Source: Candidatus Avelusimicrobium intestinale (lineage in GTDB: Bacteria; Elusimicrobiota; Elusimicrobia; Elusimicrobiales; Elusimicrobiaceae). From it: a stretch of 64,000 nt of DNA. This document shows positions 7,395 to 27,974 of the stretch, one piece after another. A program made the translations under genes and the position numbers. A model generated the notes under the pieces. That model saw only the letters and a program-made list of their open reading frames with translations. It ran no database searches and was not told where the DNA came from. The stretch covers positions 128,697 through 192,696 of the forward strand of contig CACWYV010000002.1 of assembly GCA_902765225.1 (NCBI GenBank). The letters run 5' to 3'. Position 1 is the stretch's first letter, and each line of letters opens with the position of its first letter.

Positions 7395-8504
7395 ATGGCA
7401 GAACCGACGACGCAAAATTTGCCTCAGGCAACGATGGACGATTTGTTCAAACTCATGAAAGCAAAAAATGCTTCCGATATTCACCTGACGGTCGGTGTAC
7501 CGCCTGTACTTCGTATTCAGGGCCGGCTGTATCAAACACCGTTTGAACCGCTCACCAAAGAAAGTGCCCAAATCTTGATTTATTCCATTTTGAACGACGA
7601 ACAACGTCAAGTGTTTGAAGATACCTGGGAGTTGGACTGCTCTATCGGGTTGCGTTCGTTGGGCCGGTTGCGCGTTAACGTCTATAAGCAACGCGGTAAT
7701 GTGGCCGCTGCCTTGCGTTCCATTCCCAATGAATTTAAATCGTTTGAAGAACTCAACTTGCCTCCGGTTGTTTACAACATCATGAAACTCAACAAGGGCT
7801 TGGTACTCGTTACCGGAGCCACCGGTTCAGGTAAATCTACCTCCTTGGCCAGTATGATTAACTACCTCAATATGAACGAAAGCAACCACATCTTGACGGT
7901 AGAAGATCCTATCGAGTTCGTTCATCCGCATAAACGCAGTATTATCAACCAGCGCGAAGTCGGCGCGGACACCAAATCGTTTGCCGCGGCCTTAAAACAC
8001 TTCCTGCGCGAAGACCCGGATATCATTCTAGTTGGCGAGTTGCGCGATATAGAAACCATGGAATCCTGCCTGACGCTGGCGGAAACGGGGCACTTGGTAT
8101 TTGCCACCCTGCACACCAATGATGCCGTGCAGTCTATCAACCGTATCATTGACGTCTTCCCGCCCACCCAACAACCGCAGATCCGCACGCAGTTGTCATT
8201 CGTGTTGGAGGCCATTATTTCCCAACAGTTAATCCCCACGTTAACCGGCGGGCGTGTCATGGCCGCGGAAGTGTTACTGGCCAACTCCGCCGTACGCAGT
8301 TTAATCCGTGATGGGAAGGCCGAACAGATCGTTTCCACCATGCAAACCAACGCCGGACTGGGAATGATCACCATGAACCAGGCCTTAGGTGACTTGTACA
8401 TCCAAAAGAAAATCAGTTACCAGGAAGCCTTGTCGCACACGGCGGACACGTCCGGTTTGAAAACCTACTTACAACAGAAGTTGGGAACTGCCAACTTTAA
8501 GTAA
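7395..8504 (+). CDS. pilT: Type IV pilus retraction ATPase PilT
   Basis: 369-residue hexameric secretion-superfamily ATPase that powers pilus retraction and twitching. It has an N-terminal PAS-like domain (SDIHLTVGVPPVLRIQGRL), Walker A GATGSGKST (141-149), the Asp box and Walker B region (DPDIILVGELRD), the His box (TGHLVFATLHT) and a C-terminal SAVRSLIRDGK segment. That last segment corresponds to the AIRNLIRE motif separating PilT from PilB. The ATG at 7395 has a GAGAGG site. pilB and pilC are not in this window. The pilin-like genes at 23468, 35256 and 47673 could be substrates of the same machine. Confidence 0.95.
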   Translation: MAEPTTQNLPQATMDDLFKLMKAKNASDIHLTVGVPPVLRIQGRLYQTPFEPLTKESAQILIYSILNDEQRQVFEDTWELDCSIGLRSLGRLRVNVYKQRGNVAAALRSIPNEFKSFEELNLPPVVYNIMKLNKGLVLVTGATGSGKSTSLASMINYLNMNESNHILTVEDPIEFVHPHKRSIINQREVGADTKSFAAALKHFLREDPDIILVGELRDIETMESCLTLAETGHLVFATLHTNDAVQSINRIIDVFPPTQQPQIRTQLSFVLEAIISQQLIPTLTGGRVMAAEVLLANSAVRSLIRDGKAEQIVSTMQTNAGLGMITMNQALGDLYIQKKISYQEALSHTADTSGLKTYLQQKLGTANFK

Positions 8505-8640: not shown

Positions 8641-8702
8641 TAGACCAAAAGACCTAATTAACGATAGGTCCTTTTTCCTACGCCGATTAGGTCTTTGGAC
8701 CC
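8641..8702 (+). promoter_or_regulatory. Palindrome array (operator-like) upstream of the first secreted paralogue
   Basis: Three related blocks begin TAGACC (8641), TAGGTCC (8665) and TAGGTCT (8688), spaced 24 and 23 bp. The last is the palindrome GGTCTTTGGACCC (8690-8702), which ends exactly where the -35 hexamer begins. The same arrangement recurs at 10392, 12143 and 27361. Probably a regulator binding site; the regulator is not identified. Confidence 0.65.
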
Positions 8703-8731
8703 TTGCTGTGAATCTTTTTTATGTTCATAAT
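8703..8731 (+). promoter_or_regulatory. Promoter of the first secreted paralogue
   Basis: -35 TTGCTG (8703-8708), 17-bp spacer, -10 CATAAT (8726-8731). Spacing is identical to the promoters at 10453, 12181 and 27400. Confidence 0.65.
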
Positions 8732-8759: not shown

Positions 8760-10331
8760 ATGAAAAAAATATTCATGTGGGGACTAATGTTGTGCAGCAT
8801 GAGCACACTGACTTTTGGTTGGGGGTTGGACAAAGACGTTGTGGTTACCAACAACCTAGCCAGCCAAGAAGAAGGTTATCCGTTCTTAATTTATCCGGCC
8901 GTCCATGGGAAGCCCGTCCGGGTCTATTTGCAACGGTTGCGTTCCTACACTGCGGAAGATAAGCGGCCCTTCGTCAAAGCGCAAAGGGGCACGTACATAA
9001 ATGCCTATTTACACAGAGTAGGCGCACTGGAACCGTTGAATTCGCCCAAATTCTTTGCGGAACTGAAACAAGCTTATAACGATTGGTTTTCTCTTATCTA
9101 CAACCACTTTGAAGATTTCCCTTTCCTGTGGAGAGAATTCAAAGATATTGAATCCATTGTGAAGAGCGGTATAACTCTTCAACAAACCCAGGATCCTTCC
9201 GAGGCAGATGTATTTGTCGTCTTGGCGGATGATATGTCGGTCAGTAAACGCGCCTGCGAAACTCAATTCCGGGAAGATGCCTGTTTCCTGCAAGCCCAGG
9301 CTAACGATGAGCCACCGCATTTGGTGATAGTCAACAAATCGGCGGAGAAAACGAACCGCAACCTATTGTTAAGATATGCGGCCGGCATATCGCTCGGCTT
9401 GACCCCCCAAATTGCTCCGGGGAAAGACCAATTGGGCATGCAGTTATCGGACCCTATGCACAGTCTGCCCATCCTTCGCCAATCTTTGATGGGCGGTCAT
9501 CGGGAATTTACGTGTGATGATTTGGATGGAATCATTAACTTGATAGATGTCACCTTTTACGCCAGGCAGAGAGATCCCAACGTATTCCGGTGGTATCCTT
9601 ACGGATGGCGGAGTACATGCCATGACGGAATTTCCTACGTGTCCGGTATTCCCGTGGATAAAGGGCCTTATTTTATCAAAAATGATGCCGAAGAAGACGA
9701 AATCGGACATTATATTGTTACCACCGTCCGTTCCCGGGAAATCACAGACCGGACCTTTGAGCCGAGCGATACGGAAACGTATACACCTTTTCATGAGCCC
9801 GTATTTAATATAGATGAAAGGGATAACCAAGACCGTCCGGTACATGGTATCACGGCGGACGGAATAGAAGAATTTTTCATGTACCACTATGGATACACAG
9901 ACCGGTTGGTAGTACGGGGAGATAAATTCTTACTAAAAGAATCCAGAAAAACCATTCCTAACGGCCGCCTTAACCGCAAAGAATTTCTGCTAAACCATTC
10001 CGTCAAATATGTAGAAGATGGAAAGGTGAAAGCGTTGGTGATGACCCCTTCTTCTGCCAACGAACGGGAAGTCGTTTTCTATAATGACGTAAATGCATAT
10101 GCAGACCAGGCAGAAACGGTCATGGCCTCGTTAACTGTACGCTTGGCCAACGGAGAAACGAAAATCGTTGAGGAAAAACCGTTACGCACCCCCAGAGAAT
10201 CTGTAACACCCTTAAGCGACTCCGGATACAACCGAAGTATGAATATCACCATTGCCGTAGAGAAAAAACTACGCGCTATGAGTTGGGAAGAATTGCGCGA
10301 GCAAATGATTAAGTTTGCCACTGCCAAATAA
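8760..10331 (+). CDS. Secreted metzincin-like pseudoprotease, paralogue 1
   Basis: 523-residue exported protein of a family I do not recognise by name. It has an N-terminal signal peptide (about residues 1-20) and an AAGGAG ribosome-binding site. It aligns throughout with the next two genes: YPFLI and GKPVRVYLQRL near the N-terminus, FTCDDLDGIINLID in the middle, then ETYTPFHEPVF, DRPVHG and FFMYHYGY blocks. Where the third paralogue has HEIGHSLGLSDQ (206-217), this one has YAAGISLGLTPQ. Both zinc His, the catalytic Glu and the third ligand Asp become Y206, I210, A207 and P216, while S-L-G-L and the later SLM Met-turn remain. Catalysis by this site is therefore very unlikely; a binding, inhibitory or decoy role is possible. 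Flanked by its own promoter and terminator. Confidence 0.8.
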   Translation: MKKIFMWGLMLCSMSTLTFGWGLDKDVVVTNNLASQEEGYPFLIYPAVHGKPVRVYLQRLRSYTAEDKRPFVKAQRGTYINAYLHRVGALEPLNSPKFFAELKQAYNDWFSLIYNHFEDFPFLWREFKDIESIVKSGITLQQTQDPSEADVFVVLADDMSVSKRACETQFREDACFLQAQANDEPPHLVIVNKSAEKTNRNLLLRYAAGISLGLTPQIAPGKDQLGMQLSDPMHSLPILRQSLMGGHREFTCDDLDGIINLIDVTFYARQRDPNVFRWYPYGWRSTCHDGISYVSGIPVDKGPYFIKNDAEEDEIGHYIVTTVRSREITDRTFEPSDTETYTPFHEPVFNIDERDNQDRPVHGITADGIEEFFMYHYGYTDRLVVRGDKFLLKESRKTIPNGRLNRKEFLLNHSVKYVEDGKVKALVMTPSSANEREVVFYNDVNAYADQAETVMASLTVRLANGETKIVEEKPLRTPRESVTPLSDSGYNRSMNITIAVEKKLRAMSWEELREQMIKFATAK

Positions 10332-10347
10332 ATAGGTGATTTCCACA

Positions 10348-10375
10348 AGCCACGGATTTTATCCGTGGCTTTTTT
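10348..10375 (+). terminator. Rho-independent terminator after paralogue 1
   Basis: Perfect 10-bp stem AGCCACGGAT/ATCCGTGGCT with a TTT loop followed by five T. The same stem recurs after paralogue 2 at 12096, which suggests the whole gene unit was duplicated. Confidence 0.9.
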
Positions 10376-10391
10376 AGGGCCCAATTTTTCC

Positions 10392-10452
10392 TAGGACCTT
10401 TTGTCCCTTTTTTCTAGGTCCTTTTTCCAAATTCAATTAGGTCTTTAGACCC
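10392..10452 (+). promoter_or_regulatory. 23-bp repeat array with palindrome upstream of paralogue 2
   Basis: TAGGACC (10392), TAGGTCC (10415) and TAGGTCT (10438) are spaced exactly 23 bp apart. The last is the palindrome GGTCTTTAGACCC (10440-10452), abutting the -35. The spacing is close to two helical turns, as expected for a regulator occupying one DNA face. Confidence 0.7.
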
Positions 10453-10481
10453 TTGTACAGACACTATTTTATCTCCATAAT
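10453..10481 (+). promoter_or_regulatory. Promoter of paralogue 2
   Basis: -35 TTGTAC (10453-10458), 17-bp spacer, -10 CATAAT (10476-10481). Confidence 0.65.
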
Positions 10482-10512
10482 TTAATTATAAGTATATGAG
10501 AGAGGAATGTGT

Positions 10513-12078
10513 ATGAAAAAAATATTCGTGTGGGGACTTATGGTGTGCTGTATGAGCACACTGGCTTTCGGGTGGGGGTTGGACCAGAATGTCGTGGTTA
10601 CCAACCACCTCGCTAACCAAGGAAAGGCTTTTCCTTTTCTGGTTCATCCGGTTGTAAATTATCAACCTATTCGCATCTATTTGCAGCGTTTGCGGGCTTA
10701 CACGGCTGAGGACAGACGGTTCCTGGCCCAACCGGAAGAAATGACTGATTTAGATTTTTATCTGCGACAAAACGGCGTATTGGAATCGGTAAATTCGCCT
10801 AAGTTCTTTACAGAACTCAAGCAAGCTTATAACGATTGGTTTTCCTTTGCGACTCAAGAGCTTGATCTTCTTAATGAATTTGCAGACGTTATGGCCACCT
10901 TGGGTGCAGGTACAATCATTCAACGGACCGAAGATCCTTTCCAAGCCAATCTAATCGTCATTGTGGCAGATGACGTATCGGTAAGCAAACAAGCTTGCAG
11001 ACACCAATTCAGGGAAGATGCCTGCCTGCTGCAGACCAGTTCTTTTGATGAACTCCCTTACTTGGTAATTGCCGATAAACTGCCGGCAAAAACGAACCGG
11101 AAATGGTTGTTAAGATATGCGGCCGGGATATCACTGGGCTTGGCTCCCCAAATTGCTCCGAAAAGAACGGAGCTTGGTACTCAATTGCAAGACCCGCTGC
11201 ATAGCACGCCGGTTGTCCGCGAGTCCCTGATGGGAGGCAGCTTGGAATTTACCTGTGATGACTTGGATGGGCTCATTAACCTGATAGATATTACCCGTTA
11301 TGAACAGGCAGAATCATATCCATTCCGTTGGTATCCCTTCGGCTGGAACAGTTTCTGTCATGACAAAACTCACTATATGGCCGGTATTCCTACCGGGAAA
11401 GGCCCCTATTTTATCCTCAAGGATGCGGATCAACAGGAAGAAGGACATTATCTGCTAACTACCATTCGTGATCGGAAGAAAACGCAAAGAACTTTTGAGC
11501 CGAGCCGTACCGAAACGTACACCCCTTTCCAAAGTCACAAATTTCGTACTGTGGAAAAGGATAGTCAGGACCGCCCGGTGCATAGTGTTTCAAAAGACGG
11601 AGCAGAAGCGTTCTTTATGTATCACCACGGATTTGAGGAACGACTTATCGTACGGGGAGATGAGTTCTTGCTGATGCAAAGTATAAGGAGCACCCCCAAC
11701 GGCTCTTCTACGAACAAAACCTCTACCAGGGCAAGTTTTTACAAATATGTAGAAGGAGGTAAGGTAAAAACATTGCATGTATCGGTTGCTCCCAATTATG
11801 ACCGTCATGTGGTTTACTGTGATGATGCCGATGCCTGTGCAACTGGTGAAAGCCGTGTGACAGCGTCCTTAACGGTACGTCCGTTATCCGACGGGAAATA
11901 TGAAGTCATAGACGAACAACCGTTACCTACTCCCAATCTGGCTTCGGCACAACCGATGGATGCCAACTCCGGATATAATCAGAGTATGAATATCACCATC
12001 GCCTTGGAAAAAAAGACGCGCACTATGAACTGGGAAGAATTACGTGAGAAAATGCTCTTCGTCGCCGGAGTTAAATAA
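10513..12078 (+). CDS. Secreted metzincin-like pseudoprotease, paralogue 2
   Basis: 521-residue exported protein, the closest relative of paralogue 1 and sharing long blocks with it (KKIF, VWGL, LTFGWGL-like signal region, NDWFSF, DLDGLINLID, RWYPFGW). The start is taken at the ATG at 10513 because its spacing to the GAGAGG site matches paralogue 1; an ATG two codons earlier is too close. The metzincin motif is again dead: YAAGISLGLAPQ (Y202 to Q213) replaces HEIGHSLGLSDQ, so all ligands and the general base are missing while SLMGG of the Met-turn is kept. Several Cys residues (for example TCDD, CRHQF, CLLQ) could form disulfides after export. Function unknown; the conserved fold without catalysis suggests binding. 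Confidence 0.8.
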   Translation: MKKIFVWGLMVCCMSTLAFGWGLDQNVVVTNHLANQGKAFPFLVHPVVNYQPIRIYLQRLRAYTAEDRRFLAQPEEMTDLDFYLRQNGVLESVNSPKFFTELKQAYNDWFSFATQELDLLNEFADVMATLGAGTIIQRTEDPFQANLIVIVADDVSVSKQACRHQFREDACLLQTSSFDELPYLVIADKLPAKTNRKWLLRYAAGISLGLAPQIAPKRTELGTQLQDPLHSTPVVRESLMGGSLEFTCDDLDGLINLIDITRYEQAESYPFRWYPFGWNSFCHDKTHYMAGIPTGKGPYFILKDADQQEEGHYLLTTIRDRKKTQRTFEPSRTETYTPFQSHKFRTVEKDSQDRPVHSVSKDGAEAFFMYHHGFEERLIVRGDEFLLMQSIRSTPNGSSTNKTSTRASFYKYVEGGKVKTLHVSVAPNYDRHVVYCDDADACATGESRVTASLTVRPLSDGKYEVIDEQPLPTPNLASAQPMDANSGYNQSMNITIALEKKTRTMNWEELREKMLFVAGVK

Positions 12079-12095
12079 AGAACTGTCTTTCTAAA

Positions 12096-12123
12096 AGCCA
12101 CGGATAAAATCCGTGGCTTTTTT
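12096..12123 (+). terminator. Rho-independent terminator after paralogue 2
   Basis: 10-bp stem AGCCACGGAT/ATCCGTGGCT with an AAA loop and a run of five T. Stem sequence identical to the terminator at 10348. Confidence 0.9.
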
Positions 12124-12142
12124 ATGGGGGCCCAATTTCCCC

Positions 12143-12180
12143 TAGGACTTTTTACCCCTTTCCTCTAGGTCTTTTGGCCC
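12143..12180 (+). promoter_or_regulatory. Palindrome array upstream of paralogue 3
   Basis: TAGGACT (12143) and TAGGTCT (12166) are 23 bp apart. The second forms the imperfect palindrome GGTCTTTTGGCCC (12168-12180) directly before the -35. Confidence 0.65.
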
Positions 12181-12209
12181 TTGTTATGCAACCGTTTAGT
12201 GCCTATAAT
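12181..12209 (+). promoter_or_regulatory. Promoter of paralogue 3
   Basis: -35 TTGTTA (12181-12186), 17-bp spacer, -10 TATAAT (12204-12209); the strongest -10 of the three. GGAGG at 12228-12232 precedes the ATG. Confidence 0.7.
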
Positions 12210-12238
12210 ATGAGTATAGGTTCCGACGGAGGATATTG

Positions 12239-13792
12239 ATGAAAAAACTTTTTGCCTTTGTATGTTGTTTATTCAGTGTCAGTGCGTTGGCCAGCGAATG
12301 GGGCGTTTTGGGAAATTTCACACGACAAATGCAAGCTACCGCCCGTCAGGAAGAAGTCAAATATCCGTTTTTGATTTTCTCTATTTTGAAAGGGAAACCG
12401 GTGAAAATATACCTCTCCAAATTAGAGGAAGAAGAAAAAGAAGACGATCAGATTCTCGCCCAAGATTTAGCCAAGGCGTTGGCAAACAACCCCCAACCCT
12501 CTACCGAAAATACCCTGCAGGATACCAGTTCTTTTCGGCAGTTAGTAGCCCAATCCTATAACACTTGGTTTACCCATACTGCCCAAACAATCCGAAAATC
12601 CGGACGGGAAAATGAGTTCGCTGATATTCTTCCCCTCTTAGACCGCGGTATTCAAGTAGAATTTGTGAACGATTTGGCCCAGGCAGATATCCGTGTAATT
12701 ATTACAAAAAATTTAAAAATCTTACGGGAAAATTGCGGCCCCAACAACTTGGGTTGCTACGTGTATTCTCCTGATTTTTCCGAACAACCCATCCTGTTTC
12801 TTTCTGCCCACACGCCTTTTTATTTTCGCCGCGATTCCACTTCCTTCGCGTTGCATGAGATAGGCCACTCCTTGGGCTTATCTGACCAATATATTTCTTT
12901 TTTATCCGGCGGACGGAACAATTCCGACGCCGTTCACAGCACCCCTAATACGCCGGCCTCTATCATGAAAAGAGCGCGACGCCTGACGTGCGACGACGCA
13001 GACGGAATAATTAATCTGATTGATTTAGCCAAGGGAAAATTTCACGGCGGAAGCGACGGTTGGGAGAGTCTTTGTAAAAGAACCGGGCTGCGCTACATAC
13101 AAGGAATTCCGAACACTAAAGGCCCGTATTTTATAGATATGGCCGAAGAGGAATATCCTTTTGGAACAATAAAATTAACCACCGTAACCGCCCAACCGGA
13201 TCATTGGCAACAGACTGTAAAGGAGTTTTCCCCCAGTCAAACGGAAACGTATTCTCCGTTTAATGAACCCACTTTTACGGTTGACCAACGTGATACCCAG
13301 GGCCGACCCTTACACGCTACAGCCGAAGGCGGCCTGGAAGCGTTCTATATGTACCATTACGAAATGACCTGGCGCATTGTCACGCACGGCAACACCTTGC
13401 TTTTAAGCGACCGAAAAACCTCCTTCGATTTGCTGAATATTAGGCGGCTTAAAAAACAAAAACAGTTGGCTAATCGGGCTATTATTTTTTCCCGCGAAGG
13501 CAAGACCGGCGCCATTGTAATTGAACTGAACCGGCAGGATTTTCCCTGGCGCAACGTAGTCTACTTTCAGAATTACAATGAAGATAACAAAGACTTTAAG
13601 GAATATGGATTTATAAAGGTGTATAAAAATAGCATAGAATTAATCTCCGAAATTCCCTTGCACGTACAAAAGGAAAACGAACGGGAAGAACGGCAACTGT
13701 ATTTTCAGATGTTATTTGACAGGTCTTCCGACGTAGATACCAATTGGCCTACGTTGCGTGAACAGTTAGCTAAATTAGGATCGGAAGATTAA
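12239..13792 (+). CDS. Secreted metzincin-type zinc metalloprotease, paralogue 3
   Basis: 517-residue exported protein and the only one of the three paralogues with an intact catalytic motif. The start is the ATG at 12239, just after a GGAGG site, giving signal peptide MKKLFAFVCCLFSVSALA. The zinc motif HEIGHSLGLSDQ gives H206, E207, H210, G213 and D216, the metzincin HExxHxxGxxD form with Asp as third ligand. A SIMKR segment about 40 residues later fits the Met-turn. Conserved blocks shared with its paralogues continue to the C-terminus (TCDDADGIINLID, ETYSPFNEPTF, FYMYHYE). The substrate is unknown. Its own palindrome-linked promoter suggests co-regulation with the two pseudoproteases. No propeptide cysteine switch is recognised. 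Confidence 0.82.
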   Translation: MKKLFAFVCCLFSVSALASEWGVLGNFTRQMQATARQEEVKYPFLIFSILKGKPVKIYLSKLEEEEKEDDQILAQDLAKALANNPQPSTENTLQDTSSFRQLVAQSYNTWFTHTAQTIRKSGRENEFADILPLLDRGIQVEFVNDLAQADIRVIITKNLKILRENCGPNNLGCYVYSPDFSEQPILFLSAHTPFYFRRDSTSFALHEIGHSLGLSDQYISFLSGGRNNSDAVHSTPNTPASIMKRARRLTCDDADGIINLIDLAKGKFHGGSDGWESLCKRTGLRYIQGIPNTKGPYFIDMAEEEYPFGTIKLTTVTAQPDHWQQTVKEFSPSQTETYSPFNEPTFTVDQRDTQGRPLHATAEGGLEAFYMYHYEMTWRIVTHGNTLLLSDRKTSFDLLNIRRLKKQKQLANRAIIFSREGKTGAIVIELNRQDFPWRNVVYFQNYNEDNKDFKEYGFIKVYKNSIELISEIPLHVQKENEREERQLYFQMLFDRSSDVDTNWPTLREQLAKLGSED

Positions 13793-13810: not shown

Positions 13811-13840
13811 AAAATGCCCCGCTATACCGCGGGGCATTTT
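13811..13840. terminator. Bidirectional terminator between paralogue 3 and radA
   Basis: Perfect 12-bp stem AAAATGCCCCGC/GCGGGGCATTTT with a 6-nt loop. The A and T ends give a T run on both strands, serving the convergent genes on each side. Confidence 0.9.
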
Positions 13841-13865
13841 AGATTGGCAGCCAATATCGGAAAAC

Positions 13866-15233
13866 TTACCGCAACTGACGGGACAAATCATTTAAATCGC
13901 TTAATTCCATTAGCGTCATCCCTTTCAGTTTAGATTTTTCCGCCCGGCTGACTATCGCTGTATATGTTTTGGCAAATCCCAACCGACGCGCTTCTTCTAT
14001 ACGCCGTTCTACCAGCGGTATCTTGGCCACCTGGCCCAAAATACCTACTTCGGCCATAAACATACTGTCGTGCGCAATCGGTATATCCCGGCAGGAACTG
14101 ATTACGGCCGCGCAAATGGCTAAATCCAACGCCGGGTCTTTGAGTTTGACGCCTCCGGCCAAACTGACGAAAATATCTTTGTTATCCAGCGAAAGCCCGA
14201 TGTGTTTTTCCAGTGCGGCAAAAAGCATCAGACACCGATTTAAATCCACCCCCGTGGCTACCCGCCGCGGATACGGGAACCGTGTAGGCGAAACCAAGGC
14301 CTGCACTTCCGTTAGTAACGGGCGGGATCCTTCCAACGATAACGAATAGGCCCGGCCCTTCAAAGCCCGCTCGCGCGATGTTTCCGCAAAACATTCGCTG
14401 GCATTTTCCACCGACACCAAACCGGAAGACGTCATACGAAACAGTCCGATTTCATCGGTAGAACCAAAACGGTTTTTATGGGGGCGCAACAAACGTAGGA
14501 CGTTGTCTTTCTCGGTATCAAAATAGAGCACACAATCCACCATATGTTCTAAAATTTTCGGTCCGGCCAACTCCCCGTCCTTCGTTACGTGCCCTAACAC
14601 AAATGTCATAATACCTTTGGGTTTACACAACCGCACCAGTTCACTGGTACATTCCCGTACTTGCGCTACCGTTCCCGCAGAAGAAGTAAATTCAGGATGA
14701 TAAACCGTTTGAATAGAATCTAAAATCAGCACATCGGGATTCACATTGGATACAGACTCTACAATTTTTTGAATATCTGTTTCGCAATGCAAGAAGATAT
14801 TTTCCCCTTGGACGCCAAGCCGTTGGGCCCGTCCGGCAATCTGGCTGGTGCTTTCTTCGCCGGAAATATACAACACTTTATAATCTTTGGAAAGAGCCGC
14901 AGCCACCTGCAACATAAGCGTGGATTTGCCTATACCCGGTGCCCCGGCCAAAAGGGTCAACTGCCCTTTGACAAGTCCCCCGCCTAAAAGGCGGTCAAAC
15001 TCGCTAATGTGAGTGGGAATACGGACCTCTTGTTGCGATTTACTATCCGACAGTTTGACAATTTCCGACGAAAAATCCGTAAAACTGCGTGTACGCGCCG
15101 CGGTTTTTTTGGTTTCCTGCGCTTTTACTTCTTCCGTCAGGCAGTTCCACTCTCCACATTCGGGGCATCTACCCGCCCACTTAGGGGACTCATAACCACA
15201 TTTCTGGCAGACAAAAACCGTCCTAAACTTCAT
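13866..15233 (-). CDS. radA: DNA repair protein RadA
   Basis: 455-residue RecA-like ATPase and DnaB-type helicase acting in branch migration during recombinational repair. It has an N-terminal C4 zinc finger (C9, C12, C23, C26 in CQKCGY and CPECGEW), Walker A GAPGIGKST (97-105), the RadA-specific KNRFG motif in RPHKNRFGSTDEIG, and a C-terminal Lon-protease-like domain (VSLAGGVKLKDPALDLAI). Full family length. It is the last gene of a minus-strand operon from dnaB and ends at the bidirectional terminator at 13811. Confidence 0.97.
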   Translation of the reverse strand: MKFRTVFVCQKCGYESPKWAGRCPECGEWNCLTEEVKAQETKKTAARTRSFTDFSSEIVKLSDSKSQQEVRIPTHISEFDRLLGGGLVKGQLTLLAGAPGIGKSTLMLQVAAALSKDYKVLYISGEESTSQIAGRAQRLGVQGENIFLHCETDIQKIVESVSNVNPDVLILDSIQTVYHPEFTSSAGTVAQVRECTSELVRLCKPKGIMTFVLGHVTKDGELAGPKILEHMVDCVLYFDTEKDNVLRLLRPHKNRFGSTDEIGLFRMTSSGLVSVENASECFAETSRERALKGRAYSLSLEGSRPLLTEVQALVSPTRFPYPRRVATGVDLNRCLMLFAALEKHIGLSLDNKDIFVSLAGGVKLKDPALDLAICAAVISSCRDIPIAHDSMFMAEVGILGQVAKIPLVERRIEEARRLGFAKTYTAIVSRAEKSKLKGMTLMELSDLNDLSRQLR

Positions 15234-27467: not shown

Positions 27468-27974
27468 ATGAAAAAACAACTTTTAGTTACCGCCTTATTG
27501 TTGGGTTGTATCGCTACCGTCCAGGCAGCAAACGAAAACAAAATGATGTCTCCGGTGCAACAGGCCATTTCTGTCGCCGTGCAAACGGCCCAAACGGATT
27601 CCCAGACAGAGGTAGATGAAGCGGATATACAAGGTTTTTTGATCCGTAATCCGGCTATGCAACGGATGGTCTTTCGGTATGAAAAAGCACGTTTACTGGT
27701 CAGAAATCCGCTGTTCTTTATCTTATTAGATCAAAATCAGAAAATGCAACAGCTAATATTGGATTGGCCGCAATTGTTGGACTTGATGTATGAGCAACCC
27801 CAAACCATGTATTTGCTGATTCAATGGCCGCAATTGTGTCAAAAGATACGCAATAATCCGTCGCTAATTCTCAGCATGCGGCAAAACCCGCAAAAAGTAG
27901 AAAAATTGGTGAACCGGGTCGCGCAAGTTACGTTGGAAATTGACCGGCAGATTCAAGACGATTTTCACCCGTAA
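27468..27974 (+). CDS. Small secreted protein with about ten-residue NP/WP repeats
   Basis: 168-residue exported protein (signal peptide about 1-20, MKKQLLVTALLLGCIATVQA). From about residue 59 to 148 it consists of back-to-back units of about ten residues, most with a Pro at the third or fourth place: RNPAMQRMV, RNPLFFILL, DWPQLLDLM, EQPQTMYLL, QWPQLCQKI, NNPSLILSM, QNPQKVEKL. The pattern resembles the NP-spaced helical STI1-type repeats of eukaryotic co-chaperones, which bind hydrophobic segments. That likeness is in pattern only. It shares promoter design with the pseudoprotease cluster at 8760-13792, so it may work with those proteins outside the cytoplasm. Function unknown. Confidence 0.7.
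   Translation: MKKQLLVTALLLGCIATVQAANENKMMSPVQQAISVAVQTAQTDSQTEVDEADIQGFLIRNPAMQRMVFRYEKARLLVRNPLFFILLDQNQKMQQLILDWPQLLDLMYEQPQTMYLLIQWPQLCQKIRNNPSLILSMRQNPQKVEKLVNRVAQVTLEIDRQIQDDFHP

Follow-up and report, generated by a model that had tools for sequence, protein, structure and literature searches.

Metzincin-clan pseudoproteases are known from animals, as related in passages of one review (PMC11266112), among them the ADAM pseudopeptidases (M12) ADAM2, ADAM11, ADAM18, ADAM22, ADAM23, and ADAM32. According to the same passages, the inactive ADAMs have lost the zinc ligands and the general base, retain the methionine of the Met-turn (for example, QLLSLSMGITYD in ADAM2), and act by binding (PMC11266112). 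No bacterial metzincin pseudoprotease was found in a limited literature search or in those passages of the review. Here we describe three neighboring genes, P1, P2, and P3, in a 64,000-nucleotide stretch of “Candidatus Avelusimicrobium intestinale” DNA (the window; contig CACWYV010000002.1, positions 128,697 to 192,696), from a genome of 1.41 Mb with a completeness of 99%. Judging from its sequence, P3 is most likely an exported zinc metalloprotease belonging to a metzincin family that is uncatalogued and, among the genomes searched, restricted to the Elusimicrobiaceae, while P1 and P2 are homologues of the live members that have lost the catalytic residues. The best explanation of P1 and P2 as a whole is that they are bacterial pseudo-metzincins acting as exported binding proteins, a reading that we hold tentatively, at a little short of an even chance.

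Like the ADAM pseudopeptidases, P1 and P2 lack the ligands and the general base, keep the Met-turn methionine, and have live paralogues in the same genome; by analogy, the inactive ADAMs would be their closest known parallel. The ADAMs, however, are membrane proteins of animals that carry disintegrin and other domains, whereas P1 and P2 are bacterial, predicted to be exported, and carry a different C-terminal beta domain, and sequence kinship between the ADAMs and the trio was not detected beyond the motif region. Dead and live metallopeptidase paralogues also occur together in alpha/beta MPP and the bacterial M16B heterodimers, as in the trio; these belong to a different clan with an inverted zinc motif, and in them the active enzyme includes the dead subunit.

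For the family of P3, the serralysins (M10B) gave the best profile match among solved proteins and the matrixins (M10A) matched weakly, with weak overall similarity to both. Membership in M10B was rejected: the third ligand of P3 is Asp216 rather than His, and Pfam gave no RTX match at E values up to 10. Snapalysin (M7), a small single-domain Streptomyces enzyme, has Asp as its third ligand and the motif HExxHxxGxxD in common with P3; assignment to M7 failed on score (12.7 bits against a Pfam cutoff of 25, and 13.4 against an NCBIfam cutoff of 300). AMUC_1438 and OgpA are exported metzincin-type O-glycopeptidases of Akkermansia, a gut mucus bacterium (PMC9513282, PMC7518263). The third ligand of AMUC_1438 is His where that of P3 is Asp; no sequence match to these enzymes was found, and the fold match of AMUC_1438, which was with P1, was nonsignificant.

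Organization of the locus

The trio lies between pilT (7395-8504) and the convergent radA (13866-15233) as neighboring plus-strand open reading frames (ORFs) of 523, 523, and 518 codons (8760-10331, 10507-12078, and 12236-13792). P3 more likely starts at ATG 12239 than at TTG 12236, GGAGG lying six bases upstream of the ATG; its residues are numbered here from that ATG and would each be one higher from the TTG.

8760..10331, plus strand: P1, candidate pseudo-metzincin, predicted to be exported; 523 amino acids; active site YAAGISLGLTPQ; Met-turn SLM retained
10507..12078, plus strand: P2, candidate pseudo-metzincin, predicted to be exported; 521 to 523 amino acids depending on the start (10507 or 10513); active site YAAGISLGLAPQ; Met-turn SLM retained
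12239..13792, plus strand: P3, predicted intact metzincin-like protease, predicted to be exported; 517 amino acids; HEIGHSLGLSDQ (H206, E207, H210, D216); Met-turn M243

In each protein a charged start is followed by a hydrophobic stretch that, read by eye, resembles a Sec signal peptide. P1 and P2 are 56% identical to one another, and each is about 31% identical to P3. An earlier note on this DNA had described three adjacent, full-length, signal-peptide-bearing paralogues, and the ORFs, the alignment, and the N termini as read by eye bear that description out.

Active-site residues

P3 carries the zinc motif HExxHxxGxx(H/D) as HEIGHSLGLSD, starting at H206. At the aligned place, P1 has YAAGISLGLTPQI and P2 has YAAGISLGLAPQI, which read YAAGISLGL(T/A)P and depart from the motif. 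The methionine of SxM is retained in all three (SIM in P3, SLM in P1 and P2); this residue, M243 in P3, is near invariant across the family and aligns with the serralysin Met-turn. Y218, a fifth near-invariant position by the motif, is replaced by I in P1 and P2. P1 and P2 each match the conserved residue in 17 of the 25 columns with 85% or greater conservation across live members; H206, E207, H210, D216, and Y218 account for five of the eight columns in which they differ. The earlier note's catalytic residues in P3 were thus recovered at the same numbers, and the alignment confirmed its claim that they are replaced in P1 and P2 with the methionine kept.

Family identity and predicted fold

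P1 and P2 had no Pfam or NCBIfam match, P3 matched metzincin models only weakly (Reprolysin_3, E = 0.0045), and neither database holds a model of the trio's own family. A profile of 52 family members nevertheless matched serralysin (E = 0.002) with the zinc motif and Met-turn aligned; sensitive profile searches for the family had been suggested in the earlier note. The Matrixin model was matched weakly by 16 of the 52 members, with a best single-member E value of 3e-5.

Structures were predicted with AlphaFold for P3 (mean predicted local distance difference test [pLDDT] score, 83; predicted template modeling [pTM] score, 0.84) and P1 (pLDDT, 85.5; pTM, 0.85), with a confident core in both. 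The models have a common order of elements: a long helix A, strands, an active-site helix (200-212), the Met loop, helix C (251-265), and a large beta domain. From this order and the profile fit, with a nonsignificant fold search, a metzincin fold for P3 is likely. Of the structural comparison that the earlier note had proposed for its metzincin reading, the expected element order was found; a fold match under E = 0.001 was not.

The family was found in 57 of 248 genomes drawn phylum-wide, all of them Elusimicrobiaceae, with no member in the rest of the phylum in that draw. The genome of the window has six members. By record titles, the named relatives found in the family searches are Elusimicrobiaceae, many from animal guts, and include UBA1202 and Candidatus Avelusimicrobium. 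Tandem arrays of family genes were seen in several relatives (L133, three genes; L130, six; L144, four; L129, four; and L139, three), and two members of the L133 array have Glu for the third-ligand Asp (HEAGHSIGFAE and HEVGHSLGLDE).

Recurrent loss of the zinc motif

The 129 distinct full-length members comprise 106 with HExxHxxGxxD, 5 with Glu as the last residue, 13 with HExxH and other changes, and 5 without HExxH, namely, P1, P2, and three others; two further dead members are shorter and fall outside the 129. The tally of dead members leaves out those with Glu as third ligand and those that keep HExxH but differ at the Gly or Asp. Because HExxH is retained in 124 of the 129, its loss in P1 and P2 is not readily ascribed to chance. 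The dead members were counted mainly from genome searches queried with whole proteins; a contig search by alignment patterns undersamples them, since the zinc motif is part of one of the two patterns used. A single-sequence scan of the genome contigs returned nothing, whereas an alignment query did find members.

On a quick-method tree of 131 rows with the motif columns excluded, the dead rows require three separate changes, a number forced by the starred branches. P1 and P2 form one dead lineage. Another comprises members from four species (L182, L194, L205, and L220), reading R(Q/E)TGYTLGLA. The third is L129:572-2203 of UBA1174 (YMLGNDLGLVP), which heads an array of four tandem genes, the other three intact; its placement is less sure than those of the other two because its branch is long and the tree quick. 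Replacement of the first zinc His by Tyr and of the third-ligand Asp by Pro is common to P1, P2, and this independent dead gene.

Every genome with a dead member also holds live ones, as a check of co-occurrence across relatives, advised in the earlier note, made clear. Dead members do not in general need a linked live copy, since no other family gene lies within the 2.9 to 3.3 kb fetched around each gene of the four-species clade. That the same loss occurred at least twice more in relatives suggests that the dead copies probably do a noncutting job. Family genes are also interrupted by a stop or frameshift in three relatives (L017, L119, and L138, of genomes G059, G008, and G060), so that real decay, or assembly error, occurs in the family too.

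Ancestry of the trio

The best match of P1 and P2 in the genus is a single gene of UBA1202 (genome G005), which is intact, lies directly after pilT, and follows the same order of gltX, a GYF-domain gene, and pilT. Among the 30 nearest pilT loci, a family gene follows pilT only in the genome of the window and in G005, and on the tree without motif columns the trio groups with the UBA1202 gene in one starred clade (99). The single intact gene at the same site suggests that P1 and P2 are lineage-specific tandem copies. In the simplest history that the sequences allow, one intact gene first occupied the site and P1 and P2 arose from it later; since both carry the same replacements, the active site would have been lost before they split.

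Promoters, terminators, and a shared element

A promoter-like element, AGGTCTTTnGrCCCTTG, precedes each gene of the trio (8689-8705, 10439-10455, and 12167-12183), placed at the -35 position and followed at a fixed distance by (C/T)ATAAT. The transcription signals, with terminators read by eye, are as follows.

8689..8731, plus strand: P1 promoter; AGGTCTTTGGACCCTTG element with -35 TTG, then CATAAT
10347..10375, plus strand: intrinsic terminator after P1; AAGCCACGGATTTTATCCGTGGCTTTTTT, near-identical to the P2 terminator
10439..10481, plus strand: P2 promoter; AGGTCTTTAGACCCTTG element with -35 TTG, then CATAAT
12095..12123, plus strand: intrinsic terminator after P2; AAGCCACGGATAAAATCCGTGGCTTTTTT
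12167..12209, plus strand: P3 promoter; AGGTCTTTTGGCCCTTG element with -35 TTG, then TATAAT
13813..13841, plus strand: hairpin and T-rich tail after P3; AATGCCCCGCTATACCGCGGGGCATTTTA, possibly common to the convergent radA

The terminators and separate promoters led us to reject an operon, and the three genes are probably coregulated as separate transcription units. With at most one mismatch, the element has 19 sites in the genome (none for the reversed control) and precedes all six family genes; about 18 of the 19 sites lie upstream of genes with, by reading, a signal-peptide-like start. It was found in 64 of 66 genomes of the genus, with reversed controls near zero. From these sites the element looks like the mark of a regulon of exported proteins. 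A similar element was seen by eye at the dead L129 gene, and none lies upstream of the four-species dead clade.

The element is often accompanied by an upstream palindrome, for example, TAGGTCTAAAGACCTA. Two putative regulon genes elsewhere in the genome, L302:3905-4855 and L300:3355-4671 (C2 and C4), have a signal-peptide-like start and weak matches to response-regulator receivers (E = 1e-5 and 9e-4, under the Pfam cutoff), which is odd for exported proteins. Within the window, a small protein predicted to be exported (27468-27974), with no Pfam match, has a diverged element upstream (GGGTCTAAAGACCCTGG, then TACAAT).

Selection and regional constraint

Compared as paralogues, P1 and P2 have a ratio of nonsynonymous to synonymous divergence (dN/dS) of 0.25 at a dS of 1.32, alongside 0.15 to 0.29 for live pairs and 0.15 to 0.25 for dead pairs of the four-species clade. 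On this comparison the two look selected rather than decaying, as the earlier note had supposed in calling them maintained: both are full length, with their own terminators and the family-wide promoter element.

Constraint is uneven along the proteins. Over helix A and the strands, identity to P3 is 20% for P1 and 23% for P2, against 46% for the UBA1202 protein (P = 5e-5 and 6e-4), whereas over the lower subdomain, linker, and first beta part it is 45% and 39%, again against 46% (P = 0.91 and 0.25). The ratio of upper to lower identity is 0.44 for P1 and 0.59 for P2; it is 0.77 to 1.35 for P3 against 33 live relatives, and the lowest 1% of all live pairs reaches down to 0.62. This pattern, in which the upper subdomain has lost constraint and the lower subdomain and beta start have kept it, fits binding better than a cleft-based decoy.

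Proposed role of P1 and P2

We propose that an intact metzincin gene was duplicated to give the ancestor of P1 and P2, and that this first dead copy lost all of its zinc ligands and the general base and was then duplicated together with its promoter and terminator. P1 and P2 would thus be produced from the same promoter element as P3 while unable to cut by the metzincin mechanism, having presumably lost zinc. A conserved surface made up of the lower catalytic subdomain, linker, and initial C-terminal beta part would bind a protein or glycoprotein, perhaps of the kind that the family processes. The upper subdomain, which completes the cleft, has drifted; we read the pattern as cutting given up and the surface kept.

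The proteins might instead be partners or regulators of P3, joining it in a complex or taking hold of its substrate and thereby setting its activity, in the manner of alpha-MPP with beta-MPP. The adjoining genes with their common promoter element, the L129 array, in which a dead gene likewise stands beside live ones, three in number, and the good conservation of the lower subdomain and first beta part would all suit such a role, which we nevertheless consider unlikely, if the least so of the alternatives: the genes are separate transcription units, the four-species dead clade has no family neighbor, and the upper cleft rim has drifted. Two dead copies beside one live copy, predicted to be exported in a gut-dwelling lineage, could also be decoys, drawing host or microbial protease inhibitors, or antibodies, away from P3. 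An inhibitor decoy would be expected to keep the cleft rim, yet helix A and the strands have drifted and the zinc-facing residues have all changed, and we regard this idea as improbable.

Relaxed selection on decaying duplicates that happen to be still unbroken would account for the long stem branch and for the absence of P1 and P2 from all but one species in the searched data. It is hard to reconcile with ORFs that remain intact at a dS of 1.3, with the low dN/dS, or with the kept promoters and terminators, and the four-species clade shows that dead members can last; we give it little credence. A different catalytic activity, gained at another site, has a comparably slight chance of being correct; P1 and P2 have the same changed residues in otherwise conserved columns, but Pfam, NCBIfam, and the fold search gave no significant match to another enzyme family or fold.

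Several observations weigh against our preferred explanation, that P1 and P2 are exported binding proteins. In Foldseek searches of the PDB with the full-length P3 and P1 models, no hit fell under E = 0.001, so that cleft and surface positions are placed from the profile and secondary structure. There are no P1 or P2 orthologues in the 65 other genomes of the genus, and long-term conservation of the pair cannot be shown; their stem is long (1.19 changes per column), as under early relaxed selection, and a paralogue dN/dS averages over time and was taken at a high dS. The dead helix is conserved between P1 and P2 at 17 of 21 positions (P = 0.015), but 6% of windows equal this and synonymous changes are few, and we rejected it as proof of selection. 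The top Foldseek match of P1 was AMUC_1438 (E = 0.024; probability, 0.14), and mucin-type glycoproteins as targets are a guess from this nonsignificant match.

Significance

It is an even call whether an expanded, lineage-specific family of exported metzincins has repeatedly yielded selected, noncutting members with binding or regulatory roles alongside the live proteins, which would make them the bacterial equivalent of the ADAM pseudoproteases of animals. Three independent losses within one bacterial family, one of them maintained across four species, in proteins small enough to purify, offer a direct test of what becomes of a protease fold after cutting is lost. More broadly, this uncatalogued family of predicted exported proteases may shape the interaction of the Elusimicrobiaceae with gut proteins.

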